The translations under genes and the position numbers were made by a program. DNA of 64,000 nucleotides. Origin: Niebla homalea. Taxonomy: Eukaryota; Ascomycota; Lecanoromycetes; Lecanorales; Ramalinaceae. Under the pieces are notes generated by a model. That model saw only the letters and a list, made by a program, of their open reading frames with translations. It searched no databases and was not told the DNA's origin. The stretch lies in assembly GCA_019925105.1 (NCBI GenBank), contig JAHGAU010000014.1, positions 1 to 64,000 of the forward strand, given 5' to 3'. Below, piece after piece: positions 5,236-37,485 of the stretch (the stretch's first letter is position 1; every line of letters begins with the position of its first letter).

Positions 5236-5280
5236 TCCTTTTATTTCTCAACAACCACCCTATAAAATTTTATTAACAGA

Positions 5281-8395: not shown

Positions 8396-8399
8396 AAAC

Positions 8400-11399: not shown

Positions 11400-14300
11400 T
11401 ATAATTTACGTAAAGAAGTAATTAAAACCGTAATATTAATATTTAAATTTAAGGAAATAAAGGATATTAATATTATAATAATATAAGAGCTATTATATAA
11501 TCCGTATATTTATTTTTTAATTAATTTAAAAAATAATTTTTATTTAACCTTTAAAAATAATAAAATAACGCAAACGTATTTCTTTATTAATAAAAAATTA
11601 AATATAAATAGCTAGGACATTACTTATTATAAAGGGAACTTATATATATTCCGGATTATATAAAAAGGGGATATTAAGGGTAACTTAAATATTTATAATA
11701 CGTATAATCCGTTACCGGTTAATAAGAAAAAACCCTTTATAATCCTATTACTTAAGGATATTATAATTATATTTAATAAGTATTTCTTAATAAAGGATTT
11801 TAATCTTTATTATACTTAATAAAATAAAGAAAATTATATAATTAATTATATTAAATTCAAAAAATTATTAATAATTATTATATAATTTAATTTCACGTTA
11901 TTAACGTTAAAAGGGATTATTATATAAAAAAGCCGTAAACTTAAGATTATAATTAACTTAATATTTAACTTAAAAGGTATTATTAACTTAATTATAATAT
12001 ACGGACCTTAAAAAGACTTAAAATATAATTTAAATTACGTCTTAATATAAATAACCTTAAATTAATCCGTTAATATAACTCCGTTTTTACCGTTTAAATA
12101 AACGTAAAAAACAATTAAAGAAATTAAAATATTTATAAAAATAATAAAAATAATATTTTAATTAATAAAGCTTTTTTAATTTAATAGTAAGGAATAAATT
12201 TACCGTTTTATAATACGGGTAATAAAGGCTTTAAATGAAGTAATTAACGTAATAATTTTAATAATAAAACCGTTTAAAAAAATTAAGACTTATTAAAATA
12301 AAAAATATATAAAAATAACTATAAAGGTAAAAGCACTTATAAAATAAATTATTAAATATAAAAACCGGGAAACGCTTTAACAATTAAAAAATGCTTAAAA
12401 AGAAAAGGAGAGAATTATTCAGAAAATTAAATAAATATACTTCCGGGCTATAATATATAACTTAACGGTTTCTTTTTATAATATTTAAAAATTAATAAAA
12501 TACGGTAAAAATAGAATAAGAAATTTAAATTTATTTTTAAATTTTTACCTTTAAAAAGATTAAATAATATAATAACGGATACCTTTAATAATAAGATTAA
12601 AGCCCTTAAAAAAGCGTTCCTTTTTTTATTACCGGAAGTTAATTTAATAAATATCGATAATATTATATATTTTAAATTAATAATAATAAGTAAAATAATA
12701 ATTTAAGAAATAATAATTAAAATAATTAATAAATTAAAGAAGGATAAGGCTTTTAAACTTAACGGTATATTAAATAAATTCCTATTTATAATAATATTAT
12801 TATTTAAAAAGATTTTTATTTATTTATTTTAAGTTTATTTTAATATAGGTTATTACCCCCGTAAATTTAAGGAAATTAAGACGATTATCTTTAAGAAATT
12901 AATTAAGTTAAATTACTTAGAAGTAAAATCGTATAAACTTATAGTACTCCTTTATACGTTAAGGAAAACTTTAAAAATAATAATTATAAAAATCTTAAAT
13001 AATTACGTAAAAGAATATAAATTACTTTTTAATTAATAAATAAAAATAAGAAGAAAACGGTTAACGGAGATAACTTTTAAAAACTTAATTAATAACGTAT
13101 ATATAATATAAAGTTATAGGAAGAAATACGTTATAAGTTTTCTTTCTTTAAATATTATAAAAATGTTTAATAAAATAAATTATTAAAGGTTATTATATAA
13201 TTTATGGAAAAAAAAGGTTTTATTTTTCTTTATAAATTAAATAGAAAGTTTCTTAAATAACCGAGCGATATTAATTAATTTAAAATAGAAAATAAATATA
13301 ATAAAGCCCGTAATAATAAGGATTCCCTAAAGATTACTTATTTCCCCGGTTTTATTTTTATTCTTTAATAATTTATTTATTAAAGATTTAATAAGGTTAA
13401 AATAGAAGGTTTAAGTAAAAAGCTTTATTAACGATATTTACTTTTTAGCCTATAATACGTTTATTTATATAAACTATTTAAAGCTAAAATAAGCTTATAA
13501 AGTCTATTTATAATAAATAAAAATATATAAGGCTTAATTTACTTTATATAAGTATAAGTTTATTTATATAATAAAGAACTTAAAGCTATACGATATAATA
13601 ATTACGGTAAACCTAAATAATATAGCGGTAAAACCGGAGGTTAATATTAAGGTATTTAGCTTATAAATTAATAAAAAACTAAATTAAAAAAATTATATAA
13701 GAAAGGTTTAAAATAAAAAAAATTTTATAAAAAAGGGGCCTTATTTACCTTACGGTATTAACGTAAGGAGCTACCTTATAGAAGGTTAAAGCCGTTTACC
13801 AGGCGGTTATAAAGCTTATAATAATATATATAATAATTATTTAATATATATTTAAAAATACGTTTAAATATAAGAAAAAGCCCGTTTAATAATTATAAAA
13901 GGTTTAAAACCGATACTTAAGAGTAATAAGTAAAGTATATAAAACGACTCCCGTCCCGGTATTAAAATCCGAAATCTTTATATTATTAATAAAGTTAACC
14001 CTTAATTAAATAATTACTTAAATAAGGCTTAAAAAAGGTATGAATTTAATTATGTTAATAGGAAATGAATATATTCATTAAAACTATAAAAAACCGCGGA
14101 TAAAAAAACGTAAAAAAACGGTATTTACCCTTTTTATAAAATTTAAATTAAAGTAAGTTAAGAAAAAGGTTAATTTAACTTACGTTTAAAAAGTTAACGT
14201 AAAAGTATATAGACTTTTATTTAAAGTAAAAGTAACGGAGGAAAAGAAAACCGTAAAAACGAAGTTAACGGTAATTACTTTATAAATTAAAAAGAAATAA

Positions 14301-14900
14301 ATAAAGCGTTAATATAAATATAAAGAATTAATCCCTTAAGGGTAACGGTACCCGGTTTTAAATAGCGATAAAATTATTAATAAGTATCTCCGGCGTTACG
14401 GGATTATAAGGAAAAATAATAACGTATTAATAATTTAACTCCGGATAAATAAAAACGGCTTAACTTATTTTTTCTTTATTATATACGTTGGTAACCGGAT
14501 TAACTTTAACTATAAGTATAAATAACGGAAATAAAACGCCGTATATATATTAATCTTTTATTTACTATTTAAGGAGCTTAAACCGGGGTTAATTAAAAGG
14601 ATAAAGATTAATAATTATCGTTAAATACTTATTAATAAAAAAGGTATTAAAGTAATTATTAAATTCATAATAACTACAAACTTATTATTATAATTTAACT
14701 TAATTAAGGAAATAAATAAAAGAATTAAGGATTTAATTAAGAAACCTCGCCGTTGACCTAAAAGTAAAAAGTAATAATAAGAAAATTATATTTAATAGGG
14801 GTTAAAGGGGCTATAAATATTAAAGTAATATAAAAAACGATACTATATTAATTGGTAAAGTTATATAAATAAAACGATAATAATATACGTATTAATAAGG
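11400..14900 (+). pseudogene. LINE ORF2 (endonuclease-reverse transcriptase), RIP-inactivated
   Basis: Three blocks are recognisable. (1) An apurinic-endonuclease-like block at about 11,420-11,830 has readable fragments such as FINKKL, DITYYKGNL, NIYNTYNP and a LIKDFNL element matching the LxGDFN motif. (2) Reverse transcriptase at about 13,040-13,260 has RKRLTEITFKNL and SFLSLNI, equivalent to the GRSTETAL and SLLSLD blocks. (3) From 13,319, RIP*RLLISPVLFLFFNN is equivalent to GIPQGSPLSPILFLF. A further NDIYFLAYNT near 13,432 matches the VDD-containing active-site block, with the first Asp changed to Asn. Stops and Arg/Leu substitutions match RIP of Gln, Gly and Ser codons. It cannot be functional. 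Confidence 0.8.
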
Positions 14901-15218
14901 ATATTTAATAATATAATCGGAATTTTAAAATTTTAATATTAAATAAACCCGTAAAGTAACGGAAAAGCAATAAGTTTAAAAGCAACCTTTAAGTGGATTC
15001 AGTCGTAATATTATAGGTTTTCTTAAAAAAGTATATAAATAAATTCTTACTCTTTAAATAACCATAAATACTTTTAACCCTTAAGATAAAAATAAAAACT
15101 AGGTAAATACCGGTTTTTATTTTTAATATAATAGATATCGGGTTTTTACGGTTATTAATAAGGTTAAATAGCCGAGTATTAAGGAACGCCGGAATTAGCC
15201 TAACTAGATCCGTAATAT

Positions 15219-15241
15219 AAATCAATCAATCAATCAATCAA
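15219..15241 (+). repeat. ATCA microsatellite at LINE 3' side
   Basis: Five tandem ATCA/AATC units lie immediately after the last LINE-like sequence. LINEs of several clades end in A-rich or simple repeats, so this may mark the 3' end. It could also be an unrelated microsatellite. Confidence 0.6.
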
Positions 15242-16560
15242 ATTAATAAGTATTATTAAAACGTTAACGATTTCTTTAATCTTTAAAGTTTATAATAAGC
15301 TCTTTAATTATATTAAAAGATAGAAAAATCGTTTACGCCGTAAGCGAGTTTATTAAAAGAAGGAGCTTATATAAAGTTTAAAAAACGTATATATTAAATT
15401 ATTTAAGTACTATAATAAACGTAAAGCTCTATTAATAACCTATATAAATAAGTAATACTCTTATACCCTTTAAGTATTAATAAGATCTCTAAGATTAACG
15501 ATTAATATATTAAGTAAAGTAAAACCCTTTAAGTTAATATTTATAAAAGTATACTTTAAGAAACTTTTAATACGTATTAAGTAATCCTTAATTTTAACTT
15601 ATTAATTAATCGAAATTTGAGTAAACGGCTTTACGTAATAAAGGACTTAGACTTGTTCTTAAATAAAGATAATATATTTAACGACCCCGTTAATAATGAA
15701 TTAGAATAATATATAGTATACGGTAAATTTATATTAATCTTTATATTTATTTAAGTTATTAATTTATAATAATACCGTTTTAAGATTATAAAGATAAAGT
15801 TTTAACTTAATAAAAGTAATTATTTTATAAGTTATTAATTCTATTATAAATAGCCCGGGGTATTCTCTATAATACCTTTATTAAGGTTGATTATAAGTAT
15901 TAATAATAATTATTAAACGATATTATAGCTATTAAAAAAACTTTTACTTTATAACTTTTCGGGCGAAGATATTAATTTATTACTATAAGTAAAAAGAAAA
16001 TTAGTTAAGCTAAATATATAAGGATTTAAAAGTTAATAATAAGGACTTTAAAAATTAAAACAATAAAAATTAAAAGAAATAAAAATATAATATTAATATA
16101 ATAATAACGTATATTAATAATAAAGATAATAATAATAATAATATTAACGATAATAATAATAACTTAAAAAACTTAAAGGGTCTTTTATAAATATATACGG
16201 AGAACCCTTAACGTAATTTAAAGCTAATTAATAATTAAATTAATCTATAACCTTATAGATTAATAAACTGATAATTATTTAAATAAATCTCGAGAACTTA
16301 ACTCTTTTTTAATGGTTAAAACGTCCTATATTTTTAAGTTTAAGGATAAAATAAAGGAGATTATTATTATTATTATTATTAAGCCTCCTTAATTATAATT
16401 AAGGTTAATAAGAGTAAATAAGGCGTTTTAATTAATTTAAAGCTTAATAATAATAACTATAATAAAATATATAAATACTATTTAAATATAAAAAAATAAA
16501 TCAATTATAATTTTAATAATATAATAATATTTCCTTAAGACCTTTATAATTATCTTTATG
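15242..16560. other. Unclassified RIP-degraded DNA
   Basis: AT-rich, stop-filled DNA with scarce CA and TG. It includes a run of ATA/ATT-rich trinucleotides near 16,080-16,180. A frame near 15,620-15,680 gives a short readable segment (SKRLYVIKDLDLFLNKDNI) that might come from a transposase, but the match is too weak to classify. Confidence 0.4.
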
Positions 16561-16599
16561 TTAATCGTTATAATTATGTCCCTTAATAAAAAGAATACT

Positions 16600-16762
16600 T
16601 ATCTTATCCGCTACCGGTATCTTGGTATTTCCCGGTACCATACCGTCCCATACCGTTTACCACCGGTACGGGATAAAAATACCTTTTCCCTTTCCCGTAC
16701 CGGTCCCGTACCTATACCGTACCTTTCCCGCGGTATTAATCCCGTACCGGTTGGGGGAGTAT
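16600..16762. repeat. CCGTACCGG-type palindromic minisatellite island
   Basis: A GC-richer island is built from variants of TACCGGTAC, CCGTACC and CCATACCG. Several words are self-complementary (CCGGTACC, CCGGTAC). Units overlap and vary in spacing. Similar arrays occur in or near terminal parts of fungal DNA transposons, but no transposase is readable next to it, so the origin is open. Confidence 0.55.
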
Positions 16763-16864
16763 CAACTATAACGTTATTGTTAATGCCTATCCTCTTAAAT
16801 TTACCCTTAAGGGCCGTTAAGTGGTACCTTTTAAGTTACTCGGGAAGACGTAAGGTCCTTTAAA

Positions 16865-17090
16865 CCTTAAGCAGCGTATAAATATTATAACAACCCTGGA
16901 AACTGCCAAAATAAGGGAGGCTTTTAAGGGCTCCAGACCGGAAGCGTAAGGAGCAGTTATTAAAGCCTTTATAATAAGTGGTATTTTACAGGGTAAGACT
17001 TAGGGTAAGGGTAAAGATAATAGGAACGGTGAGGGTAAACGTAATAAAAACGGTAAGGGGAATAATGAAGATTCTAATTTAAATATTCAA
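16865..17090. other. Partly un-RIPed G-rich island
   Basis: This island keeps CA, TG and G-runs (for example GGGCTCCAGACCGGAAGCG and GGGTAAGGGTAAAG). It is less mutated than the DNA on either side. The GGTAAGG words resemble the minisatellite at 4.7-5.2 kb. No gene can be read. It may be a fragment of the same repeat family. Confidence 0.35.
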
Positions 17091-18505
17091 GAAATAGAAA
17101 ATTTCCTTAAATACCAAGATATACCGTTCTTTTTTATATCTTTATTAAGCTTAAGGTCAGAAAAGGCTTAATACGGACGTTAAGGTAATCCTTATAAATC
17201 GGTATAAACCTTTAAATTAACTTTAATTATTTTGATATTAAATAGTTAAATCAATTAATTAATACGTAAATTAAAAAGCATAAATTAAATAATATTTTTA
17301 ATAATATTATTATTATAATTAAATCCTTAAAGAATAAAGTAATTAATAAACTCCTTATTCTTAAAGACCTTTTTAAGCCGGAATAGTATTTAGTAATGAT
17401 TACTTTAAAGGTCCAATAAAACGGTTTACCGGGGTATTAATAAGATATCCACTTAATGATTAAGATTAATATATTAAACCATACGTAATCCCTATCCTTT
17501 AAACGTTTAATTATAGCTATAAATATTTTAAATATAATACCTATTCTTTATCGGATTAAGATACTATTATTAAAAAAGCAAAATATATACCGGCATAATA
17601 AATATATTATTATTAATAATTAAATAAAAGATTTATAATAAGTTTATTATTATACGTTTAAAGTTTATATAAATCTTAAAGGCTTATATTATTATATACC
17701 TTTAAACGGATAATATCGGGGGCGATATTTTTATTTTATTAATATTATTATTAAAATATAAATTAATATTATTATAAATAATTAAGTTATTATAAATTAT
17801 CTTTTAAACTTTTAGTTTAAGTAAATAAAAGAATAATGAGATTTTATAATAAATAAAAAGGATAAAACCTTGATAAATAATTCTTAAATAACCTAAGCTT
17901 TATTAAATAAAGGTTCAATAGGATTAAAGAGAAATAACTCCGTTACATTAAGTTAAAATAATTAATGAGAATAAGTAATTATGGTAATAACTTTTAATAA
18001 GCTTACCCTTAGATTTAATACGTCCCGTAACCGGTCCTTTGGTTACTTTAATTAAAGCCTTAATTATCACTTTAAGTTAATTTTAATACGACTTAAAATA
18101 AACAATAAGAACCATCCGGTTTAATATAATTAATATCTTAATTACGTAGCTTTAACTTTATTATAATTATTATTTAAAGATTATATTAATTCTAAGGATT
18201 TTAATTATAAAAGCTTTAATAGGTAAATAAGCCGGTTTATAAATAATAAGTTTAAAGGGCTTAAGAAGCTTATAATAAATTAAAACATTAAACTTTAAAT
18301 ATCCTTAAAAAGTTATTTAACAATATAAATTAACGTCGTAAAGCTCGGGGTGTAAAAATAATACTTAATATATTAAATAATTTAAGACGTAATATTAAAG
18401 CTTATAAACCCGTATACCGTAATATATAAGTTAAGATAAACAAAAAGCATATCGAAAAATACCTTATTAAAGAGTAATAAGCTTAATATTAAGTTAATTA
18501 ACCGG
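17091..18505. other. Unclassified RIP-degraded DNA
   Basis: AT-rich, stop-filled sequence with CG retained and CA/TG scarce. No transposase or reverse transcriptase motif could be defended on either strand. Confidence 0.4.
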
Positions 18506-18513
18506 CTTATTAA

Positions 18514-18569
18514 CCGGCTTATTAATAAGCTTATTAATAAACTTATTAATAAGCTTATTAATAAGCCGG
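18514..18569. repeat. Perfect 27-bp-arm palindrome (potential cruciform)
   Basis: The left arm 18,514-18,540 begins CCGGCTTATTAATAAGC. The right arm 18,543-18,569 is its exact reverse complement and ends AATAAGCCGG. Only two bases (AC) separate them. Each arm is itself made of CTTATTAATAAG units, so the arms are internally palindromic too. Flanking TTAA and GGTTAA extend the symmetry with a small mismatch. This could form a cruciform or a double hairpin. Confidence 0.85.
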
Positions 18570-18855
18570 GGTTAACGGTAATAATATTATTTAAGTCTTA
18601 AATAATAATGAGAATAATATCCCGAGTAATAATAACGAAGGTAATAAATAGAGAGAGTATTATAAGGTATTAAATATATAGCGTATAATTAAAGCCTTAT
18701 ATAAATTAATTAATAAGGACGCTTTATTTATATATATTTCGTTATTTATTATTTAAAAATACCATATATACGTTGGAGAATTTAAGTATTATATACGGAA
18801 TTATTACGTTTACTTATTATACCTTTATAGGGACGTTAATAACCCGTATATATCA
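18570..18855. other. Unclassified RIP-degraded DNA
   Basis: AT-rich stop-filled sequence following the palindrome. No gene and no motif recognised. Confidence 0.35.
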
Positions 18856-19400
18856 GTAAATCTGCGACCTGCTTAGATCGAGTAGCCAAAAAAAAAAGGA
18901 ATTTATTCACTTAGATCGCTCGTAAGTTACTTACGAGAATCCCAGAAAACTTACGAGCGCTCCGAGCGGTCCCGAGCGGGTAAAAAAAAGTTTAAAAAAA
19001 CATTTAAAACGGTAAGATTACGATTTTATTTTTTATAGATTTTTTTTATTAAGCTTTCTTGGCAACGGGTATAGCCGTAACCTCCCCTATAAGCCGTAAT
19101 ATTCAACGTTTTTTAAAATTAATTATAGATTTAAGTTTTTTAGCTAAAAGTTACCCTGGTAGCTAGTAATTTATCCTTAAGGGGGGGGGTGTTAAAGGGG
19201 GTAATTTAATTAAAAAACTTTAAGTTAAAAAAAAAAAAGTAAAACTTATAAGAATCCAGGAAACTTACGAATAAGCCGGATATTCGCGAGCACTTAGAAC
19301 ACTTAAAGGCCAAGCGAGGGGGATATAAACTCAACCTGCTTAATCTGCTCGCTTATACTTAGAGTGCTTATATACTGGTTTACAAATTTGCAGATATACT
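18856..19400. other. Semi-GC island with repeated and palindromic motifs
   Basis: Motifs recur at both ends of this stretch. CCTGCTTAGATCGAGTAGCC near 18,859 and CCTGCTTAATCTGCTCGCTT near 19,337 are related. GAATCCCAGAAAACTTACGAG near 18,938 and GAATCCAGGAAACTTACGAAT near 19,251 are direct repeats. A 9-bp inverted repeat CTCGTAAGT-T-ACTTACGAG lies near 18,920. There is a run of nine G near 19,182. It looks like a small nonautonomous element or an element end, but its limits are not clear. Confidence 0.4.
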
Positions 19401-20540
19401 TCAAAAAATATTATTAAAAAATACCGTAATTTACTTGAAGAATATAGTATTTAAGCGATAACTTTTTCTATATACTTAAATTTATAAAGTTACCATATAT
19501 ATTTCTTAAGGTTACCCTTAAATTAATATTTAGCCGGACTATAACGGAAATGTTCTTTAATTTTATTATTATACTTATTATGCTTTATAATAAAGTAAAT
19601 AAAGCTACTAAAATTCCCTTAAAAAGTATCCCGGTAATAATAGAAATAACGTTTTATCTAGGCTTTAAGTATATTAAATATAAGTTTAATAAGGTTATAA
19701 TCCGGTAAATACGGAGGTAAATAACGAATAAGATAGTTTTTAGTTTTAACGGCTTAACGTATATAATTATTATAATAAATGTTAACGTTATTTAAGTAAA
19801 TTACGTTATAAAGGTTAAGGAAGGCGTTATAATACGGTAAAAGTTTATTAACGACTTATTCATAAATATAATCGTTATTAAAATAACCTTATTTAAGAAT
19901 AATATAAGGTAAATAATTATTTATTAAGTATATTAATATAAGAAATTATATATCCTTTCGGTTAATATTAATATAATAATAAACAGGATTATTAATTAAT
20001 CCGTATATTATTATACGTTAATAGCTTTATTATTTAAAGTTATATTTATTAAAAAAAATAAGTTACTCCGCCCTTATTTAAATTATATTTACTTATTAAT
20101 CGTTTTATAGTATTTGACTTTAAGGGCTAACTTATTAAAAAGTATAAGGGGATATATCCATTTTTTTTATCTGCCGGTTAACGGTTTCCTTAAATACCGT
20201 AATATTTTATTCTTCCTTTAAATATACCGTTAACTTATCTTAAAAGGTATAAAAACGTTATTTAAGGTACGTCCGTAAGCTTTTTAATACGGCCGGATAA
20301 AGCTTATAATTTAAACTTAAATAAATAGCTATAAAAAATAATAATTATTTAATTATTATTATACGGCCTTCTAATCTATATATTATTAATATAAAAGTAA
20401 TTATCTTATTAATAATAACCTAAGGCTTCCAATAATACTTATAAAGGAAATAAAAGTCGCTACGATCGATTTTTCAGTAAAATATATTAATATTAATAGA
20501 GAATTCAATATTATACTTAGAATTAATATTACCGATTTAA
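19401..20540. other. Unclassified RIP-degraded DNA up to the isochore edge
   Basis: AT-rich stop-filled DNA. Composition changes abruptly to balanced GC at about 20,540-20,600. No coding motif recognised. Confidence 0.4.
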
Positions 20541-20926: not shown

Positions 20927-23900
20927 TCAAGCGACGTTCGATGCCTGGTACAACGTCGAGCTAGACGCAATCTGGCGAGCCGTCGTCGTTATGGGCACAC
21001 TTGCCATGACCTCAATGACACTCACCGTCGCCTTCAGCTCTCGCAGCGCCCAATTCACAAGCTCGATGGCTGTCAGAGAGTCGACCCCATAGCTATGCAA
21101 GAATCTCCCCGTATCGATCTCCGATTCTGCCGTCTGCAACATCTTCGCAAGCCGACCAACGAGTGCATCCGTCACCACCTTTGCAGCTTCCGGCATCGAA
21201 GCCGCCTTCGACAGTAGCGTTTGTGTCGAGTTCCCCGGCTTCTGGCTCCCATTACCGTCCCCACTCTGCTGCGCTCTGACTCCTGTCCTGGCCATGATAG
21301 AGAAGCGAGCATCTCGTTGGAGGTAGAAGGGAGTCGAGATGCCGGCATCCAGAACGCTCCCCCCAGTAGCAAGTCCAGTGAGAACTTGCGGTGCCACGTC
21401 GCCAGTCATGTCACCCACAATGACTTGCTTGAGGAGGGCATGAAGCTCAAATTCCCAGATCCCATAAGGCTTCTCCCACTCGCGTAACGAATCAGTTATG
21501 CCTTTCTCCGCCAGGACGCCAACATCACGCATGATTCCTAGGTCAAGTGTCACAGCGTGTAGGCCCAAGGATCGGCGGTGATATGCCATGGCATCCTGGT
21601 ACGCCCCTGCTGCCGCGTAGTTGCTTTGACCCAAGTTGCCAAATGTAGCTGCAAAGGAGCTCAGGGAGACGAAGAAGTCAAGGTCTTTAAGATTTAGGTG
21701 GATGTTCCAAGTTCCCTGGACCTTGGGCTTCACCGCCTGAATCCAGTCATTGTAGCTCATTTTCATAAAGAAGACATCACTGAGGACCATGGCGCATTGA
21801 AGCACGCCGCGGATCGGTCCAATTTCCATGAGACATTTGGATATGGACTGTCCCACCGCCGCTGGATCCGCCACATCGCACACGTAGGCTTGAGCCCGCA
21901 CCCGGCGACTTCTCAAGTCATGAATGAGCCTTTGCGCCTCGGCTGAGGAATCTCCAGACCGGGAGAGAAAACAAAGTCTGCGTGCGCCTAGGTCCACGAG
22001 CAGGTTTGAGATGCTCCTTCCAAGCCCGCCAAAGCCGCCAACAATCACGTAAGCGGCATTGGAGTCCAATTGAGTTGCTTCGGCTTTCCTACGAATGACC
22101 GGAATCGGGCTTGTGTCTCCGAAACTGAGGACGACCTTGCCAAGATGTTGACCCGATTGCATCAACCGGAATGCCTTCTCGACATCGGAAATTCCGTAGA
22201 CCTTCACCGGCGTTATAGGCCGGGTGATCTTCTGTCGCTGAAGCTCGAAAGTCTCGAAAATGATCTTGCCCATCACATCTGGACGGTCTCTTTCGAGATG
22301 GTTCAGGTTGAAGAAGGTGTAAGATGTGCTCTGCAGGAAAGGCCGCATGTCGAGTCCTGTGTTGTCAAGGATATCCTTGATCCCAATCTCAATGAACGTG
22401 CCAAAGGGTGCAAGGCAGTGCCAAGTCTGCGTGAGAAACTCGCCAGAAAGTGAGTTTAGTATAACATCGACGCCTCGTCCACGAGTCAATCGCTTGATAC
22501 CCTTCACGAAGCTCAGGTCTCGTGATGATAGTATCCTGTCATTCGAAAGCCCATATTCCTCGCGCAATAATTTGCGCTTCCGGCCGGAGCCCACCGTGGC
22601 GATGATATCCAGTTGGTAATGTTGCGCGATCTGAATGGCGGCCTGACCTACACCTCCAGCAGCTGCATGGATTAATATAGATTGACCCTTCACTACTCGC
22701 GCGAGCTGTACCAGCGCGTACCACGCCGTACCGTGGACCACCGGGATGGTCGCGGCCTGCTCATATGACAGGTTTTCCGGGACCAGCGCGCAGAAGTCAG
22801 CTTTACTTCGATGAATACTTCTATGTGAGCCGTGTCCATACATCGCAACGCCGTCTCCGACCTTGAGCTTCCGAACTCCAGAGCCCACACGCCGGACTAT
22901 ACCAGCAGCATCGAAACCGAGTAGTCTATCGGGGATCTGGCCCATGACAACCATGACCTCGCGGAAGCTATGAGGTTAGCATTTTTGTTCACTGCAACGG
23001 ATCATAACTCACTTAAGCGCTGTAGCCTTCACGTCTATCTCAACTTCATCCGCCTCGAGCTCCATCATGGGCAATTCATCGCTCTCGAAACAGAGTGAGT
23101 CCATCATTCCGGGATTCTGGATAAAAAGCTTAACTGGGCCACCCGCCTGGCTGAGAGGCACCATGTCAACGAAGTCGGGAGCATTTGGCAATAGAGCATG
23201 GATCTGCTTGTTGACAACGAGGTCCTCTTCTATGCGGCTTATAGATATTGTGTTGTCTTCTATCCTGAATTCATCGTCCTCAGTCCTTGATCTGGAAACT
23301 CGAGCTATTGCTGAGCCGAGCCACTCGAGAGATGAGGATGTCGCAATGTTGGTGTGTACTGTTCGGAACGAGATGCTAGGGTTCTCATTGCGGACGACAC
23401 GAGCGAGACCACTAACCATGCCACTACTTGGACCGTCAAAACCGACGATCCATAATACTTTTTGGACCTCGGTCATGAACTTCTTCAGTAAGCCAAAGTC
23501 TTCTTCACTCATATCACTGAGCATTGGTCGTTCAAGCTCCAGGAGAGAGATGCAGGCCTTGTCTTTCATGGTGGAGAGATCAGATCCCCAAGAAAAGATG
23601 GTCGTCTGGCAAGAACAATTTGCAAGAGCTTCAGATATCTTCTGGCTGGCAGCATGGGCTTTTTCGGAAAGACGCGCTGGCTGTATGATGAAAATCTCCT
23701 CCTGATCGTGACTTCGATGTGTGTCCACGGCAGCTCGTGCAATGAGCAACTCAGCCTGACGCAGGCTAGGATTATCAACATCGCTTAGCGCGAGATGCAA
23801 TTTCAGGTCGTCTCGGGCCAGCGCGGGCCTCAACGAGTTTGCCCTGTAACACAGCTTGTCAGTCTGGACTCTCGCAGGCACGTAAGGCTATGCGCACCGT

Positions 23901-26900
23901 GCGCCACCCGCTTCCGTCAACATGGAGAGGTACGCTCTAGGGCTGCTGATATCAAGAGCGCAAATGTCACCTCCTTCTTTCAGGAGGCTTCTAACGTTAG
24001 CGAGCGCAGTATCCGGACGCTCTGAAATATTCGCGAGGTCAAAGGCCAGGATAACGTCAAATTTCCGACCTGGCGCTCCTTGGATTTCTGAATCTTTATC
24101 TGCATCAAAGATGATGTACTCGACTCCACTTTTGAGCTTCTGGGCTTCCGCCAGTGTCCCAGCGCTTGACAATGCAGTTGTATACCGAAGAGTCTGCTGT
24201 AAGACGTCAAGCCCCGGTATGTGATTAAGCATAGATACAGGCGCAACTTGAGCCGGAGTTGCTGATAACTCAAGAATTGAAAACTGCGGGTCAGTGAAAT
24301 GGAGTAAACGAAGATACTAAGCAGGTCAGTATAGGCATCTCATCAGCGAGCTTAGGGATCCTTACTTCGCCAAGCTGCCTCAACAAGAGCTTGATGGCCG
24401 CGCTCTGCATAAGATGACCAGTTTGAGAAGCTATAGCTTCAACGTCGGAATCTGATTTGTTTGCCATCAGGTGCCCTTTTAGTCCCTTTGAAAGGTTTTC
24501 TACTTGGACAATATCGATGTTGCACTCGCTAGGTGAGTGCGTATGATCTAAAAACCCTTGGCGAAGATGGTCTGGGCTGTCTGTAATTTGATTCTGGGAC
24601 TGCATCCGCTCCCAAAGTGCCCTTTTCGTAGGTGAGACCTGATCGACTGCAACAGTCTTCAGCGCATGGTCGATACAAGTGAGCGCATTTGCTTCATCAC
24701 GCCAAACCAGGTTCGTTAGACCGTCCTCACCTTCTGATCTACACGCGTCTTTGATCGCTCGCTCTGTTTCTTCGGCTGAGAGTAGCTGGATTGCTGGCTT
24801 CCACGTAAGCTTACTACAGAGGCTCCTGAGCCCCACGTTGTTCTCAGACGCTGAACCTGAGATCCCAATCTCAGTACACACGAAGCCAATAATCTTCACA
24901 ACCGGATGAGCAGCGTCCTCGGCAAACACGATGATATCGGCCTTTAATTCTTTGAGCCCATGTGTTTCCGCGTTCGAGAATCCGCCCATGCGAGCTCCAG
25001 TCTGGAAAGGAACGTCTGCTGAGACAAAGACTTCCTCAATGGCTCTAGGTACCATTGCCTGCCTCAGATCATCATCAACCCTTTGGATCGCTGCGAAAGC
25101 GCCGTGAAACATGGCATCAAGGGTGCCAGGGTGAATCACGTGTGGCCGCTTGGTTGCTTCGGCAGTGACTGCGGCGTATGTCTCAGGGACTTCTACGGTA
25201 CACAAGCTCTTGCCATTGCCGCTTCTGATTTCTTTTAAGTTCTTGAAGACTGGGCCGTACTTTAGACCAATAGCGGCAAGATTACGATAAAAAACTTCCG
25301 GGGCAATGTGTTGCTTGCATAAAGAAGCCGCCTCCCGGCATCTGAGCTGCAGATGTTCAGATTCGACTTCCCATTCCTGGCTCAAGCTAGAATCTTTGCC
25401 CTGCTCGTAGTCAATCAAGAGGAGTCCTGAGCAATTCCGTTGTGGAGTTTCAGCGTTGGGTGATGTGGTCACCACAAAGTCTAACCACGTATAATCACTC
25501 TGCCGTGTACCGGTGAAGTGGGGTCTCAATTGGACAGCGCACTCTATATCTGTGTCCTCTGAAATGATCAAAGCAGTCGTCAACTGCACGTCTCTAAGGT
25601 GGAAGCCTGCAATCTTCCGGTGAGGATCAGCAATCTGATGGGCAGCTTCGAAAGCCATGGCCAAGAAGCCAGCACCAGGGTACAAAATGGAAGATCCAAT
25701 CTGATGATCCGATAACCAGGGTTCCTCCGACAGTCTGATGAACTTTCTCCACAAGTATTCTCCCGGTGCGAAAGAAGAGCTGGGTGCCCCCAAAAGACTG
25801 AGAGGTGGTTGCTTTCGGTGCCGGAACTCCCTCGCGAGTCGCGACTCCTCCCAATAGCCCTGAGAATGATTCCATGGATACGAGGGTAGATCAACAAGTA
25901 GGCTGATGTTTTCCTTGCAGCTTTCATTATTGACAGAAAGTGAGTTGATTAGGCCGCCTCGGGTGAATACAGCACCCGCGAGGGCTTGAGCCGTCTGAAG
26001 TCCGTCCTGCTCTCTTTGCAAGACAGTCTCATATGGCATATTGGTGATACCGTGAGTCTTCAATGTCTGAGTTGATGGCCCTTGCAGCGCAGGATGAGGC
26101 CCAATCTCGATCAGCAGGTCGACTGCATTTTCTTCCCCGCGTCTGCCATTGTTCTGCACGGGGCGCACCATGTCATAGATGGCCTTGGCGAATTGCACGG
26201 GCGAGGTGAGGTTACGTACCCAATTGGCAGCACCAAGCTCGTCCGGCCGGATTTGACATCCAGTGACGCTCGAATGCATTCGACATTGTCCGGTTGGCGT
26301 TTGTGTTTGAAGATCGCTTATATGTTCGAAGTAATCCTGAGCTACGACCTGCATATGAGGCGAATGGTAAGCAGTATCAACCTTCAACTTTCGTGCAAAG
26401 ATTCCGTTTTCCGCAAATTTGGCCGCCATCCTATCAATGTCGGCCTTGTCGCCCGAAAGTGTCACACTTGAGGGTGAATTAATGCAGGCTAGCACCACTT
26501 CACCCTCGTTCTCAGCTTGGGAGATCCACATCTCGGCTTGCTTAGGAGATAGCCCTACAGCCATCATCGATCCTGAAATGTCTGGTGCGACCTCTTTGAG
26601 AGCCGTAGAAACGATTCCACGATAATATGCGACCCTCCACGCATCCTCGCGACTCAGGGCACCAAGGCAGTAAGCTGCCGCGATCTCACCGCTGGAGTGT
26701 CCCGCGACCGCCACGGGGGTGATGCTCCAAGTCCATAGGAGGTCCACCATGGCAACTTGTAGCACGGTGCAGATCGTCTGGCTGAACACGGCGAGATGCA
26801 GTCTGGATGAGAACTTCCCCTTCATCAGTTCGTCTTCCACCGCCCATGCACATGAGCAAGCCTCTCTAAGGTGTTGATCTGCGGCTTGGATGCTTTCTCG

Positions 26901-28949
26901 GAAAGCAGGATAGACCATTAACTCGACCCCCATCCTTGGCCATTGTGCGCCTTGGCCTGTGAAGACGAATCCAATACGGGGATTATCACTGGCTCGAGTT
27001 GCTGATAATATCTCTTCGTCCTGCAAAACTCCGAGGAGATGCTCGATTGATGTTGCGGCGCAGCTCGTCCTCCATTGCAGAGTAGCCCTCCGGCTCAGCG
27101 TGAAAGACAGGTCGGAAAGATACGCTTGGGTGTTGCAAGTCTCATCTTCTAATCTGCTCATCAGATGATCAGCCAAAGCTTTTTTGGTACGCGTCAACCC
27201 TTCCTTATCCTGGGCACTGAATAAGAAAATACGAGAGTCAGCTTCTGCGCCTCCATCATTGCCATTGTTCTGAGGCCTCTCGTCCACTTCTATAGGGTTC
27301 TTCTTGTAAAGTCTCTCATCTCGATTGATGTCATCCTTCTTGCGGGATCTGATTTTAATGTTCGTGGCATCATGGGATACTGCCTTCTGTGTCGACTTTG
27401 CACCATAATTAGACACGCCGTCAAAGACGCCGTGTGCATGTTCAGAAAACCTTCTCTTGACGGGTGAGGAGGGAAAACCACTGATCGAGCTCCATTTCAT
27501 CCGTTCACCATTTTCGAAGGCTCGTCCTGATATCTGGGTGTGATGCATCCCTTGGACCTCAAAGCTCTGCAGATAATGGTATGCGTCATCAAGGATCGCA
27601 TGCGCATTTGTTCCTCCATAGCCAAAGGAGTTCACGCTGATCCTTCGCAACCTAGAAGCTGGCCATGGAGTCAAAGCAGTCGCTACCTTTAAACCCCACT
27701 GTTCAAACTTGATCTTTGCATTTCCTTTCTTATAATGGATTGTTGGTGGGATCACACCGCGTTCGAGTATCAGAATGGATTTAAGTATACCAGCGAGGCC
27801 AGCGCAAGCCTCCAAGTGACCAATATTGGTCTTTACGGATCCTATGTAAAGAGGGTCGTCAGACGGACGGCCTTTGGAGACTGTCTCGGATAGAGCCAGT
27901 GTTTCTTCTGTGTCGCCAGCCTGAGTCCCTGTGCCGTGAGCTTCTACGTACCCCGTGCTCCTGAAGTCCAAATCTGCAGCAGCATACGTATCTCTAATCA
28001 AGGCCGCCTGTGCATCCGCGCTGGGAAGCGTGAATCCTTTGGTGTGTCCATCTTGGTTACTCCCTGTACTTCGAATGACGGCACGAATTGGATCCCGACC
28101 CGTAACCGCCTCATCGACCCTCTTCAGCACGATAGCCGCAATTCCCTCGCCCCGACCATAGCCATCGCTTGATTCGTCGAAACTTTTACATTTGCCATCC
28201 GGCGACAGAAAGTGCTGGTTAGAAAGAAACATGAACATCTCGGGGTTCAGAAGAAGATTGACCCCTCCGACAATAGCCGTATTACACTCCCCAGACCTCA
28301 AGCTCTGGCAAGCTAAATGCAGAGCCACTAGGCTCGACGAGCAAGCAGTATCCAAGCTGAAGCTCGGCCCGTGCAGGTCGAAGAGCCATGATATTCGGTT
28401 GGCCAAGGATGTTTTCGTACTGCCACTGTAGGTGTACATGGGTGCTGTATCCGGGTCTTTAAAGAGCAACTCCCTGTAATCACTGGTGTGGTGGCCAACG
28501 AAGACGCCCGTCTTAGAGCCGGCGACATCCTTGATGGATAGCCCTGCGTTTTCGAGGCTTTGATAAGCGACCTCGATCATCAGCCGGTGCTGCGGATCCA
28601 TAGAGGAGGCCTCTGCCTTCGAAACCCCGAAGAAGTTGGCGTCGAACTTGGTGATGTCGTCTTTTAGAAAGTGGGCCCCTCTCGTAATGCTGGTGTTCAC
28701 GTTGCCTGAGGTGGAGTGGAAGGCCTCAACGTTGAATCGTTCTCTAGGTATCTCCGACCAAGCCGCTGGGGATCATAGATCACCGTTAGCGGGGTCTCAC
28801 TTCCAGTTCCATCTCTCAGCTTTGCACTTACATTCTCCATGGCAGATCGACTCCCAGAAATGATCAAGTGTATCACCATCTCCAGGAAAGCGGCATGACA
28901 AGCCCGTGACGGCCACGGAACGACCATCACGTCGAGATTGCGTGGCCAT
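20927..28949 (-). CDS. Highly reducing type I polyketide synthase (KS-AT-DH-psiMT-ER-KR-ACP)
   Basis: It builds a reduced polyketide chain from malonyl units. Exons (minus strand) are 28949-28832, 28765-24366, 24316-23898, 23843-23013 and 22967-20927. All junctions are GT-AG and in frame, giving 2,602 aa. The start MATQSRRDGRSVAVTGLSC is just before the conserved KS opening. The KS has DTACSSSL (Cys about 181), EAHGTGT (His about 316) and NIGHLEAC (His about 356). The AT has GHSSGE (Ser about 730). The DH has His about 1060 and LDAMFH (Asp about 1256). The methyltransferase region lacks a SAM-binding glycine motif (ILELSATPAQ near 1520). The ER has HAAAGGVGQ near 2023. The KR has GGFGGLGRS near 2233 and Tyr about 2373. 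The ACP has GVDSL (Ser about 2553). The DH motif HQIGSSILYP has Ser where HxxxGxxxxP expects Gly. No release domain is present. The divergent ACP-TE gene at 29,558 may supply it. Confidence 0.95.
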
Positions 28950-29557
28950 TACTCGATGTATGCTGAAAAGTTTCTTGACTGTTTAGGATATGAAGAATAA
29001 GCGACGGCCGAGACTAGGTCAGGCTGGCTCTAGTACCTTATGAGAGGATCCTGAGTCCAGTATCTACTCAAGTTAGCATATCGTACTTATAGTGACAAGG
29101 CATCAGACGGATTGAACTCAAAACTTGTTACTTGAGGAGGATGTGCACGAGATAATAGCATGATCGGAAATGCACAGGTTTTGGGGAGGCTGAGAGCTCA
29201 TAGGTAATTCGTGGTGCTACCCTCACAACTGTGTCGCTGATCATAGTAAGACAATCGTTCCCGGTCATTTTCCGCTCCTCGCAGCGCACGGATCGTCATT
29301 CACGCCTGTAACAGCGGCGTCATAGCGTCTAAGCTCAAGATGATTTAGTTCCTGGCATAGTATTCACCATGCTTGGTCAGCCTGATCGGCTTGAAATCTC
29401 GGCCTCGGTACATTCTTATAGCAAATAGGAAGGCATCAAAAAATCGCCGAGTCATTGCAAGTAATCTTTCAAGGGCTTTTGCGGTTGCATATCTAGGTGG
29501 TGACTGATAACGTGCGCATCCTCTAGAATAGTCAGCTCGACGCAGCAGGCCGATTCG
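28950..29557. promoter_or_regulatory. Bidirectional intergenic promoter region between PKS and ACP-TE
   Basis: About 600 bp separates the divergent start codons of the PKS and the ACP-thioesterase. No coding sequence is seen. Shared divergent promoters are common in fungal metabolite clusters and suggest co-regulation, but I cannot name a specific regulator site from the sequence. Confidence 0.55.
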
Positions 29558-30851
29558 ATGTCTGCTGTGATCAGGTCGAAGATGCTCAATAATGATCAAG
29601 TCCTTGCGGTATTCAAAATCATAGCTGATGAGATTGGCGTCACTGAGGACAACGTATACGACACCGATGACTTCTCCCTTTTCGGGCTTGACGATGTCCT
29701 ATCTAAATCAATCACGGAACGCATCAAGGAGCAGCTCAAGCTAGACTTGCCCTCCACCCTCTTCCAAATGAACTCAAGCGCCACGGATGTTCGTGATTAT
29801 CTCAAAAAGCAGGATGAGAACAGAATCCAGGACGTCGGATTACCTCTTCCAGCCAGTAGAAGCGGGAAGCCGAACAACCGCAAGGAACGAACGATCAAAT
29901 CCAGGGCTCCTCCACTGTCCATCACCCTGCAAGGCCACCCTTCGACCGCCCACAAAATAATCTTCCTGCTCCCTGACGGCAGTGGCTCCGCAATGGTATA
30001 CTCGCAGTTTCCTCAAATTGCCCAATCCGTCTGCTTGGTCGCATTCAACAGTCCCTTTTTGACTGTCCATACGCCCAACAACAAGGGAGAAGATCCGATC
30101 TCCTTCAAAAAGACCTCCATCGAGTCCCTCTGCCTCATCTGGGCCGAGGAGATCCGGCGCCGACAGGCCTCGGGGCCATACATCCTTGGCGGATACTCGG
30201 CGGGCGGGTACTACGCCTTTGAGGTGGCTAAGCATCTGAGGCGCGCGGGCCAGGTGGTGGAGAAGTTGGTCTTGATTGATACGCCCTGCCGGCTGGAGTT
30301 TGGGGCACCACAGATGGAGGCTATCGATTTCCTCAGCGAGCGTGGGATGCTAGGCGGTCAGGGCACGGCAAGGAAGGCGCCTGATTGGTTCTTGAGACAC
30401 TTCCGGCGCACCATCGAGGCCGTGGAGAGGTACATGCCGACGAGCATGGCTCGGGAGGAGGAGAAGCAAGCAAATGCAAAGGAGATGCCAGAATGCTTCG
30501 TCATTTGGGCGACGCAGGGGGTCTTTGACGAAATCGATGTGGAGCCTTTAGAGATAAGGCTAGATTGGAGTGCTAGCATTACTAGATTCATGCTGGAGGG
30601 AGGGAAGAAGCTGGGGTCCGACCTGCACGGCTGGGATCGGATTCTGCCGGACGCGACGATCTGGGAAGGTCAGGTGCCTGGGAATCATTTTTCATTGGTG
30701 CACCGGCCTAATGTAAGTCTCCATGGAGAGCCTCAAAAGCTCTGTGAGTGAATCTGCTGACATCTGGTAGTGCAATGCTTTTCAAGCAATCTTTCGTGAC
30801 CTATTGCAAGACGTCCCAGATCGAAGGCAATATGCATGGCAGCTTCGATAA
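29558..30851 (+). CDS. Stand-alone ACP-thioesterase didomain with ACP Ser-to-Asp substitution
   Basis: The likely role is release or editing of a polyketide chain. Exons 29558-30712 and 30771-30851 (GTAAGT...GGTAG intron) give 411 aa. Residues about 10-85 resemble the last ACP of a non-reducing PKS, but the motif reads FGLDDVLS. Asp46 stands where the phosphopantetheine Ser of GxDSL belongs, so this ACP should not be loadable. Residues about 130-405 form an alpha/beta-hydrolase thioesterase with LLPDGSGS, the nucleophile elbow GGYSAGG (Ser214), VLIDTPC (Asp241) and GNHFSLVH (His377), so a full triad is visible. Splicing restores a sensible C-terminus ending AWQLR; without it the frame ends soon after the triad His. 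A second in-frame ATG at 29,582 is possible. It is divergent from the HR-PKS, which lacks a release domain, so it may act in trans. Confidence 0.9.
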
Positions 30852-32708: not shown

Positions 32709-34203
32709 TCATGGTAAGTTGTAACCCAACGCCATCACAGCGGCCTGTAGTCCGGCGGCATTGAAGTTGGGAAGCACGCTGGGCGGCAGATCATCTACAA
32801 CGTCAGGCAGAGTATTGTTGTGCGGTATACTGCTGTCCTTGGTTGATCCGATGCTTGACTGCCGCTTCGAATGGTAGTCCATCTGCTCCGGCCGCGGAAG
32901 CTCCCTTTGCGTCTTTCCGTTGGAGTAGTTGATGAGGGGATACTCTCGGCACGCCAGGGCGACGGCTGGACGAGATCGTGAGTAAAGGCGCACCATCTCC
33001 ATAGACTGATGGAAAGAATGGGTTGATTTTGACTTACAAACGGCATAGTACGCGTAGTTGTTAGGGTTGTTAAGCTGAAAGTCGGCGTTCTTATAGCAGA
33101 GGTTGTTCAGATCATATTCCTCCGTCCTGAAAGGCAGAGGGTGTGGGACATAGATATGAGCCAGCTCATGCAGGATGATCGAGAATTGGTTCCTGACGGC
33201 GTCCTTGTGGTTATCGTATATGGTCGAGTTCTTCGTATAGTCCACTGTTGGGCAATTGGCTCCGGCGATTGGGAAGGGTGGATAATTACTGAAAAAGGTG
33301 GGACACAGGAAAAGATTGCCCCCGTTTTCCTATATCTCAGGTCGCCGAGTCAGCATGGTATTCGAAAGTTGAATCGGGTGAGCCCAAGGAAGGTACAAGC
33401 TCGCTTGTCTATTGCTGGACAAGGTGTTCGGCATCGCTGAGCTTGTACGGCGTGGAATACCTCGGATCCCTAGGGACGAATAAAGGCATGGTTTCCGAAT
33501 TATACTTACGAATGCAACACCGCCTTTGTTAGAGCTACACGTTGTCAAGCTGTTCTGGATGTAGGGACCACTCTTCTCGTTGATACAGATAAACATCGGC
33601 CGATTGATTGTCTCACCACTTTGGGTTTGAGTGGCACCGTTGGTTATATCGGTGAACACTCGCTGCACCTTATTCCTGTGATTATTCTTGAAGAAAACTA
33701 AGAAGGGATCTTGATGCGGATCCGGGGTTGGGTTGCCCATGGCCGAGATGACTGGATTCGTGAGGACGTCGCCCAAGTGCGAAAACAATGTTATCAAATC
33801 CTGCGCTTCTTCTGGGAGGCAACCCGCAAAGACATAAGGCCCATTGTTCTGGAAACATAATTCGGGATTAGTAGGTGCGATATCAAATTCACTGCATAGA
33901 TTTTCAGGGATGTCTAGAAGAGCTTCGTTCATGCGGAAGTGCCATTGAGCTCCTCCAAAATTTTGGAAGAGTCTACTGTGCTCTGGGTTCACGTACACTA
34001 GGAGGATCTCAGATTCAGTGTTACCTGAATACTGGAGCGCTCAAAATATGGATTGGGAGACGGGCACCGACTTACAAGAGAGGCAGACCGTAAACCAGCT
34101 CTGTCTGACTGTACTGGCGATCTTCAAGGGCTGGTGAGGTCATGGAAATAGGCGCTGTGAGCAGTAACAGGGAAAGAGCTTTCATGGCTATGGTGCCGGC
34201 CAT
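32709..34203 (-). CDS. Secreted M35-like (deuterolysin-type) zinc metalloprotease
   Basis: This is a likely extracellular zinc protease. The ATG at 34,203 opens a hydrophobic signal-like segment (KALSLLLLTAPISM). The main exon runs from about 34,050 to 33510 (readable SEILLVYVNPEHSRL onward), then 33329-33042 and 33005-32709. The third exon carries HELAH, the zinc-binding HExxH, followed by an Asp-containing stretch and NPNNYAYYA, which matches the conserved end of aspzincins. Junctions 33510/33329 and 33042/33005 are in frame; the latter uses a GTTTGT donor. The first junction is not resolved: the strong GTAAGT donor after GLPLL does not give an in-frame join to any obvious acceptor. Either a weaker donor is used or there is a one-base lesion. 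Confidence 0.75.
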
Positions 34204-36254
34204 GTTGGTGCACCAATTCTGCTTCAGACAAAGATTTCGAAGACAGCTCCCTCCCTGTAAGAAACTTTTACGCGTTATTCGCTCGACATAAAATGCCCCT
34301 CAGGCTCTTATATAGATCGCTCTAGACTGATGCAATGAACAGAATCATGTTCCTAGTTGAAACAGCGCTAATAAGCCCCATGTTAATACACCCATGTCGC
34401 TCTTTCGAAAATGATAAGCTGCGCTATTATGATCTGCTGCCAAGGTGCCAATGGAAACTAAGTGAGGAAACTCTTCTACGCCTTTAGCCGCAAAAGGTTG
34501 ACTACGCATATTGCGACGTCGTGGAAGGAGCAAAGCGCTCTTAAAGCGACCCAGAGCGTCTCAGCCAAGGAGAGTCGATCTCGCTTGGATCAGACACACA
34601 GAGAAAGAAACATGAACATCCTTTACCACCAGCAGATGAGTCAAGCAAATAGTGTGTAAGGGCATCAAAGTATAAGCCCAGAGCACCCTCATCTTAGCTC
34701 TTACAGCTCAAGCCGCTCTTCGATTATACGATCTTTGGGACGTCTCCTGGCAACAACAACCGTGCGAGAAGCACATTCTCTTCATTTACCTCGACGAGCA
34801 AAGACCTGACCACGAATCAATCGCCAGCTAATGAGCGCGGTCTGTATTGCGGGTGATTTCAATGGCTTCATTCTTGGACACTGTCGGCCTAGCTGGAAGC
34901 CAAAGCATTGAATAGCTTACCCTCAATGACATAAACACCGAAATCACTCGTCTCCAGGGCAGACAAGTCGCTACTAAAAGAGCACACTGAGTACGTGCAG
35001 ATCCTCAGGTCACTTGAAAACCCAGGGCCGCTTCTACATGGGGCCCAACCAGGCCATTCTGTACCAAGACAAGCGTTATCAGGCTTTAGGCTCGACTTAG
35101 CTGCATGAGCCCCTTTAGGGCAGGTTCAACTCCGATTATTTCTCGTGGCCCCATGCAGTCAGACTCGCCCCAATGGCAGCTGAATTTAAGCCGGTCTGAT
35201 ATGGATAATTATATATGATTGCTGATGTGATGGTATCTGCGCTTGCAGTCTCAGGATCTGAGACGCACCGGATGCAATTTGGATCCCGGTAAAAAAGCTC
35301 TGAAAGCCAGCGTAATATACAGTTGTGTTGAAACTGCCAAGGCTACTGAGCCTCAGTCTCGCCCTGGCATGTTACGACACACTACATAGTACATGTGGAT
35401 TCCACAGGTTGGAAATTGTACTATGAAAAAGGCCCTCAAATTCTCAGCACTCAACAAAGCTTGGCCGTCTATTGAAGTTTGCGATGCAGTTAGAGATCTA
35501 TCAATGTGCAAGAGCATCTACTGGCTATGGTGCCAGTGGTGCCAAGCACTCTTACAGGACTCCTTCGTGGGGATGGGGGGTCGCAGAGCCTACAAAAGAT
35601 CAAGGTGAATCTTCTTACATTCAGGATGTCGAATTTACCTACCAAAAAAGGCCAAAAGCAACAACTTCGTGCAGCTGCAGCATGAAAATTAATTTTACAT
35701 GAGAGTATACTAGGCATGAAAGGCGTCTGTGATTGGGCAGTATGGCTTGCAAGCCAGGGTCCCCAGTGTCTCTGCTGGTGCGTGGGAGACCGATGTACAT
35801 GTCAGAGTGTAGACAGCAGGTAAGAAACGAGTTTCAGTGCTTCTTGATGAGCCATAGATCTCATCAAGCATGTCAAGATGTCTCAATGTAGGGGAATCTA
35901 GTGGAGTCTTCTTTTTCGCCTTGAACTGTCATACAAACGAAAATTCGGTGTGCAGGAGGTCCTTGCCGATAAGCTGTATTTTTATTTCGATGAGCTGTGG
36001 AAAGATGACTTCTGGCTTGCAAGTGGCAGTAAGAATTTGTGTTTGCGGGTAAATGGAGCCTTCGCGGCAATCTTCGGTATTTGAGGGGAAATGAAGCTTT
36101 ACGGCAGTCTTCGGCCGATGCTGATCATAGAGATAAGGATTCAGGCTGCCAGATCATCTCTGTTTCCAAGACAGCTTTCTAGGAGCGAATTAAATAATCC
36201 TCCAACTTTTCGAGGTGCAGAAGAGCCTTCTTGCGCGAATTTATCAAGAAAGCA
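34204..36254. other. Intergenic, no supported gene
   Basis: About 2 kb with only short, unrelated open frames on both strands. It probably includes the promoters of the metalloprotease (left) and the O-methyltransferase (right). No RNA gene or repeat is recognised. Confidence 0.5.
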
Positions 36255-37485
36255 ATGGCCACCCAAACTCACCAACGGGACGTGAATACTGATTATACGA
36301 CAGCTGAGACGAAGGTCGATGACCCCAGTATCTTTCTGACACAGATCTTGGTCCAGCAGCAACAGTATGCCTGTCTGAAATGGCTCCACCATTTTGATGT
36401 ACTCTCGAAAATCGACAGCTCACCCGACCGGGTGTCAGTGTCTTATCAAGAAGTTGCGCGGTTGGCTGGAGTACCCGAACGGACTCTGCGAGCGGTCACT
36501 CGCATGGCAATGACTTCTGGCTTTCTTACAGAGACTCCCAAAGGTCATCCTGCCCACAATGCCCTGTCCAGAGCTATTCAGGAGAATCGCCATCTGCGCC
36601 ACTGGCTTCATTTTGCCCTTAAGGTTAACGTCCCTACGATGGAAAAATTGATTCCGGCAGTGGAAAAGTGGGGTGAATCCACGCAGAGCAATCACACAGC
36701 CTACAACCTCTTCCGAGAGACCGAGCTCCCATTCTTCCAATTTCTCAAAACAAGGCCAGAGTTGGGCCTCGAATTTGATGAGTTCATGGAAAGCCAGGCC
36801 AAGACACATGCCGGCGTTCGAATCGAACATCTGCTCAATGGATTTGATTGGGCGGCCCTTGGAAAGGCCTTGGTGGTTGATGTCAGTCCTGCCGTGAAGC
36901 GTCTCCCTTCTGTTCCCCGTCGTTTTGACACTAGCCTTGGCTGACGCTTACTAGGTTGGTGGCAACGCTGGCGCAACCGCAATTACACTTGCCGAGGCTT
37001 TTCCTGACCTTCACTTTGTGATTCAAGACCTGAAAGGTCCTATCGATACCGCTATGGACAAGCTTGCGCAGCTGCCTAAAGAGATTTCGAGGCGGATAGA
37101 GGCCCAGGAACATGATTTCTTCTCCCCTCAGCCAGTCAAAAAGGCAGATGTGTACCTGCTACGACAGGTCCTCCATGATTGGAAGGATCAAGACGTAGCC
37201 AAGATTCTGAAGCAGCTAGTAGAGGCCGCTGGGCCTAATAGCCGAATCCTGATTTTCGATATAGTTTTACCAACTCCAGGATCTGGTTCGAGAGATCTGG
37301 AGGCAGCTCTACGGCAGAAAGATCTTATGATGCTTCAATGCTTTAATGCAAAGGAGCGGGAGGTGGCGGAATGGCAGACTGTCTTGCAGGAAGCACATCC
37401 ACGTCTTGAGATCAAAGCCATCCGGAGACCGGAGGGAAGTCACTATTCTGTCATTGAGACTTTCCTGGGCCGAGATCCTGCATAA
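36255..37485 (+). CDS. Class II (COMT-like) SAM-dependent O-methyltransferase
   Basis: It transfers a methyl group from SAM to a hydroxyl of a small molecule, typical of fungal polyketide tailoring. Exons 36255-36881 and 36955-37485 (GTCAGT...ACTAG intron) give 385 aa. The start is the ATG opening MATQTHQRD; upstream codons in frame have no ATG. The N-terminal half has the winged-helix dimerisation fold features (YQEVARLAGVPERTL). The intron falls exactly inside the SAM motif, which is restored as LVVDVGGNAGATA. Catalytic His is in LLRQVLHDWKDQD. About 5.4 kb beyond the ACP-TE and on the same strand, it could methylate the PKS product, though the unrelated protease lies between. Confidence 0.9.

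Follow-up and report, generated by a model that had tools for sequence, protein, structure and literature searches.

Pairing of a highly reducing polyketide synthase with a serine-less ACP-thioesterase in Niebla homalea and other fungi: a probable trans-acting release enzyme

A free-standing ACP-thioesterase encoded beside a highly reducing polyketide synthase (HR-PKS) in Niebla homalea is, to judge from its sequence and those of its relatives, probably the dedicated trans-acting release enzyme of that synthase, with an acyl carrier protein (ACP) domain that has lost its phosphopantetheine serine and would be kept as a docking adaptor. The gene, here called pseudoACP-TE, lies within the window, the whole stretch of 64,000 nucleotides that was analysed, which forms the start of contig C14 (JAHGAU010000014.1) in a 50.6 Mb, 52-contig assembly (GCA_019925105.1). 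The features concerned are the following.

20927..28949, minus strand: HR-PKS, KS-AT-DH-(degenerate MT)-ER-KR-ACP, 2602 aa (spliced model and Pfam)
28831-28766, 24365-24317, 23897-23844 and 23012-22968, minus strand: HR-PKS introns
28950..29557, unstranded: divergent intergenic stretch of 608 bp between the HR-PKS and pseudoACP-TE starts
29558..30712, plus strand: pseudoACP-TE exon 1, residues 1-385 (Pfam PP-binding and Thioesterase)
30713-30770, plus strand: pseudoACP-TE intron, GTAAGT...TAG
30771..30851, plus strand: pseudoACP-TE exon 2 and stop (in-frame splice; spliced C-terminus like that of homologue P0010)
29591..29833, plus strand: pseudo-ACP domain, about residues 12-92 (AlphaFold model; Pfam PF00550)
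29693-29695, plus strand: GAT codon for Asp46, which replaces the phosphopantetheine Ser (gene model and alignments)
29906..30712, plus strand: thioesterase domain, residues 117-385, with the triad Ser214/Asp241/His377

The pseudoACP-TE gene (29558-30851, plus strand, one intron) encodes an ACP-thioesterase of 411 aa, in which Pfam recognizes a Thioesterase (1.4e-17) and a PP-binding domain (2.3e-6); its best-matching named relatives belong to lichen-forming fungi, for example Lecanora helva. No FSH1 family match was returned by Pfam at E up to 1, only PF00975, PF00550 and general hydrolase families, and NCBIfam added nothing specific. Among 25 scanned rows Thioesterase PF00975 was found in all, with no methyltransferase family among the matches listed. 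The first-pass annotation of this locus had described an intact thioesterase triad, and this is borne out: Ser214, Asp241 and His377 are invariant in a 25-row alignment, and among 121 rows (the query and the best 120 of 170 homologues) Ser214 occurs in every one, Asp241 in all except P0023 (Asn), and His377 in all bar P0013, P0023 and P0030, short records that have a gap there. It had also read GLDDV at the ACP site, with Asp46 for the serine, and on this gene model and alignment agree, the residue sitting within FGLDDVLSKS. Despite loss of the attachment serine, the domain is predicted by AlphaFold to keep the ACP fold, with helices at residues 12-26, 46-60, 68-71 and 75-92 (block pLDDT 78-91), helix II opening at residue 46.

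The neighbouring HR-PKS is read from a minus-strand splice (28949 to 20927) free of stops through 2602 codons, with KS, AT, DH, ER and KR domains identified by Pfam and an ACP with an intact serine in GVDSL. As had been claimed, it has no release domain: the protein ends 53 residues past the start of the GVDSL motif, and there is therefore no space for one. Its methyltransferase region lacks a SAM motif, as do, in a simple motif scan, all 11 long HR-PKSs paired with such a thioesterase (this one included); loss of the motif may not be general, given that the fragment P0331 matched it and a methyltransferase appears among the precomputed Pfam entries for P0260.

Across positions 1-20000 of the window GC content is 13-27% at the contig start and up to about 50% near the HR-PKS 3' end, with a GC skew of -0.86 in the first 2 kb, and this AT-rich start looks like a repeat/RIP-type or subtelomeric block. 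Two adjacent open frames occupy 32712-34040 (minus strand), one of which weakly matches M35 metallopeptidases (0.0011, under the cut-off). Two adjoining frames at 36201-37482 (plus strand), of which the second encodes an O-methyltransferase (PF00891, 1.2e-23), may be part of the same cluster as the gene pair.

Alignment of the GxDSL site across homologues, a check proposed with the original reading, confirms loss of the phosphopantetheine serine as a family-wide property of free-standing ACP-TEs rather than a local oddity. The free-standing set comprised the query and the best 120 of 170 homologues of similar length (E up to 1e-10; 121 rows), and the fused control the best 120 of 1064 relatives of the non-reducing PKS (NR-PKS) of the same genome, retrieved with its ACP2-TE region, together with five own paralogues. 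Serine occupies the site in only 2 of the 117 free-standing rows that hold a residue, and is absent from the other 115, query included, as against 124 of 125 ACPs preceding a fused NR-PKS TE, where the one exception, P0185, looks misaligned. Weighted for redundancy, serine frequency is 0.02 in free-standing and 1.00 in fused proteins (the latter without P0185). Both P0185 and P0074 are unreliable at the site and were kept in the serine counts; P0185 was omitted from the tree and conservation analyses. Over the 121 rows the residues are D 39, P 24, T 9, N 7, K 7, G 7, A 5, R 4, V 3, H 3, S 2, L 2 and one each of C, F, M, I and Q, with a gap in 4. The rows without an ACP are the fragments P0027 and P0030, and P0112 and P0118, which begin at the TE and are either real TE-only forms or records in which the first exon was missed.

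Several simpler accounts of Asp46 were considered and rejected. A sequencing error or single-strain mutation is contradicted by Asp in P0013 (89% identity across 59% of the query) and in all of P0001-P0011, as well as by the breadth of the loss. That the ACP-TE is part of a longer NR-PKS is at odds with the HR-PKS, which in the window runs the opposite way 608 bp upstream, and with the serine contrast. The earlier remark that GAT lies two changes from every Ser codon, and so does not reflect a simple RIP event, is correct but beside the point, because the serine is lost family-wide and many residues occur at the site. RIP or decay is further countered by a decayed NR-PKS tail in the same genome, whose ACP still reads GIDSL, the opposite pattern to pseudoACP-TE; this tail, at about 5900-7800 of contig C42:24000-33900 (L013), consists of PT-ACP-ACP-TE pieces with stops.

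The view that pseudoACP-TE is the severed C-terminal end of an NR-PKS is supported by both phylogeny and alignment, and upholds what had been proposed from its appearance. In a tree built from TE columns alone (71 of 115 usable free-standing rows, 35 of 124 usable fused rows), all free-standing ACP-TEs fall on one side of a branch with SH-aLRT 96, beside the NR-PKS ACP-TEs, and the nearest fused sequences include P0173 and the own-genome NR-PKS on contig C1. With the ACP2-linker-TE of this last protein, residues 9-390 of the window protein align unbroken at 40% identity. The single clade and the one-piece alignment fit one severing event, which would have left an NR-PKS with nothing but its last ACP and TE, and a later loss of the serine. 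The two serine-bearing members, P0055 and P0082, are nested within the clade next to non-Ser members, and the site therefore looks free to vary. One member, P0038 (Arachnomyces sp. PD_36), is a 620-aa form with a nucleotide-sugar-dehydratase-like domain (PF16363) past the TE, either a real fusion or a gene-model join. Searches beyond fungi yielded no relative in viral contigs (31 candidate stretches) and, in prokaryote genomes, 191 candidate stretches, of which 38 are bacterial loci that match part of the query at 26-51% identity, chiefly in the vicinity of the TE nucleophile.

Free-standing ACP-TEs are recurrently linked to HR-PKSs in other fungi, as read from contigs of identical exact size and from locus numbers rather than from DNA. 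With an HR-PKS list made up of the best 120 of 2614 matches to the HR-PKS main exon, 16 of the best 120 free-standing homologues share an exact-size longest contig with an HR-PKS match; among equal-sized lists, the same comparison gave 0 for free-standing TE against NR-PKS and 0 for HR-PKS against NR-PKS. Nine of the 16 shared contigs are 11-135 kb long. Locus numbers follow directly on one another in Lecanora helva (003274/003275), Cudoniella acicularis (5307/5308), Ascochyta clinopodiicola (002038/002039) and Drechmeria coniospora (03826/03827); those of a Pyricularia sp. differ by 7 (08705/08712). The pairs of P0033, P0038, P0039 and P0064 are weaker, resting on 0.56-4.05 Mb contigs and no tag evidence, and a second Lecanora helva match (P0340), on the same long contig at a distant locus number (002849), was left out of the count. 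The 104 of 120 homologues that are unpaired tell neither way, as both lists hold the best 120. In an HR-PKS tree built from 73 of 121 rows, the 17 paired synthases (own included) and 46 others share one side of a split (63 versus 10 rows, support 100), with Men1 on the opposite side. Mapping the paired label onto this tree takes 12 changes, so pairing may not extend to the whole group; an unmatched member of the 63-row group may still be paired and was not counted as unpaired.

If the pseudo-ACP were a tolerated leftover, merely aiding folding or solubility of a TE that acts on the HR-PKS alone, in the manner of LovG-type enzymes, then weak constraint on the domain would be unsurprising, and the family does show some: conservation per column is 1.87 bits in the ACP, 0.70 in the linker and 2.69 in the TE, and at TE identities of 0.5-0.6 ACP identity is 0.35 in free-standing against 0.47 in fused proteins, this faster evolution at equal TE divergence indicating weaker constraint than in fused ACPs. 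The two TE-only homologues (P0112 and P0118) point the same way. We nevertheless regard this account as unlikely, since the domain stands far above the linker in conservation, PP-binding is detected in 24 of 25 scanned rows (query included), and the ACP tracks the partner synthase. Identities of pseudoACP-TEs and their HR-PKSs correlate with r 0.83 across the 17 pairs (a value reached in 0 of 20000 permutations) and 0.775 over the 11 distant pairs. By part, correlations over all 17 pairs are 0.79 for the ACP, 0.53 for the linker, as expected from species relatedness, and 0.81 for the TE; in the 11 distant pairs that of the ACP holds (0.70), as does that of the TE (0.76), whereas that of the linker vanishes (0.02). 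With TE divergence removed, the partial r of the ACP is 0.375 (8 of 5000 permutations as high; 0.390 and 84 of 5000 in distant pairs), compared with 0.140 (516 of 5000) and, in distant pairs, 0.012 (2255 of 5000) for the linker. The TE with the ACP removed gives values above those of the ACP (0.450; distant pairs 0.531), and part of the partner correlation can come from shared species ancestry.

An editing (type II-like) thioesterase would also be free-standing, and could use the pseudo-ACP as a targeting domain in clearing stalled HR-PKS chains while another enzyme carries out normal release, for which the search of the cluster was non-exhaustive. This we consider distinctly improbable. Among the 17 paired HR-PKSs (own included), 11 have sufficient length to include the ACP, all of which retain its serine, and 10 of these end right past it, at 49-55 residues beyond the motif start (the tail of P0256 is longer), and the linkage recurs in distant fungi. 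Within the window, a scan of 10 ORFs to the right of the gene, a subset of those there, turned up no further thioesterase or alpha/beta hydrolase.

D, T, N and G are helix caps, so that several of the common residues at the site suggest that only the fold is kept. A domain posing as a holo-ACP, with Asp46 mimicking the phosphate of the phosphopantetheine arm, can be set aside as very improbable, for although Asp outnumbers every other residue (39 of 121 rows) and occurs in 23 of the 24 best matches, Pro, Thr, Asn, Lys, Gly, Ala, Arg, His and others are found elsewhere, and HR-PKS-paired members carry D, N, A, F, T, K, H or R.

In the preferred reading, a release enzyme docked by its pseudo-ACP, the HR-PKS would build its reduced chain on its own ACP and, there being no release domain, the TE would have to take the finished chain in trans from that holo-ACP, whose GVDSL serine is intact. 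Ser214 would then attack the thioester, with release by hydrolysis or by (macro)lactone or ester formation. Studies on NR-PKS TEs describe reported or proposed roles in several of these release types (PMC5591372, PMC9318984), and the type used by pseudoACP-TE cannot be read from sequence. Because its serine is lost, the old ACP would be apo and no competing carrier; its shape may instead bind the HR-PKS where an ACP or a partner PKS would ordinarily dock, which would explain its retention, and the docked domain would hold the TE close to the loaded HR-PKS ACP. The docking role first suggested for the pseudo-ACP thus gains from the family-wide serine loss, the constrained fold, the 16 of 120 linked homologues and published pseudo-ACP precedent; docking and release themselves are what we infer from these.

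Such precedent comes from fungal methyltransferases. In that of tricholignan A, from work by Chen et al. in 2019, the apo pseudo-ACP is reportedly essential and is said to have been proposed to bind the PKS. For the fungal pseudo-ACP-MT UsgM (ustilaginoidin), one report states that the pseudo-ACP is important for function, and describes a Cosmosporella protein of UsgM-like didomain layout in which D-P-L replaces D-S-L (PMC12036058). The window protein resembles both in being a separate didomain with a Ser-less ACP before a trans catalytic domain, encoded with an iterative PKS; it differs in being a thioesterase, in having a highly reducing partner and in a presumed role in release rather than methylation. 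A Ser-less ACP fold directly before a TE is also described for Mycobacterium tuberculosis Pks13 (PMC9210659, PMC11649247), but there it acts in cis within a bacterial megasynthase, whereas the pseudo-ACP and TE of the window form a separate protein. Homologous to the window protein are the C-terminal ACP2-TEs of fungal NR-PKSs such as Men2 and TpeB, whose HR-PKS partners are Men1 and TpeA; in the Tpe pair, the TpeA chain is proposed to reach TpeB, whose TE makes esters (PMC9318984). Unlike these, the window protein lacks the NR-PKS body (there is no SAT-KS-AT-PT fusion) and its ACP lacks the phosphopantetheine serine. KU42 and KU43 are HR-PKSs with a fused C-terminal TE that releases the chain, in cis behind an active ACP, in contrast to a separate TE behind a pseudo-ACP. 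LovG-type hydrolases belong to another, FSH1-like, alpha/beta-hydrolase family. LovG and FSL2 are separate enzymes releasing an HR-PKS chain, for which the accessible text mentions no ACP domain (PMC6274466); the TE of the window carries a pseudo-ACP. In the open-access literature searched, a scope outside which most subscription journals lie, no account of a pseudo-ACP-TE working with an HR-PKS came to light.

Work on fungal natural products repeatedly meets the practical question of how HR-PKSs without a release domain free what they make, a question that a recurrent pseudo-ACP partner makes testable; such a partner may also guide genome miners in matching a TE to its HR-PKS, and offer a natural docking part for engineering. 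The comparisons made here suggest that a change from carrier to adaptor, known for methyltransferases, has probably occurred in a likely release enzyme across a wide range of fungi. It is an evenly balanced prospect that this constitutes a Pezizomycotina-wide release system, in which one HR-PKS clade without cis release relies on a captured NR-PKS fragment whose carrier became a docking adaptor by giving up its serine. If so, a carrier-to-adaptor switch would have built a new two-protein assembly line, which could be used as a transferable handle to equip HR-PKSs with a TE.
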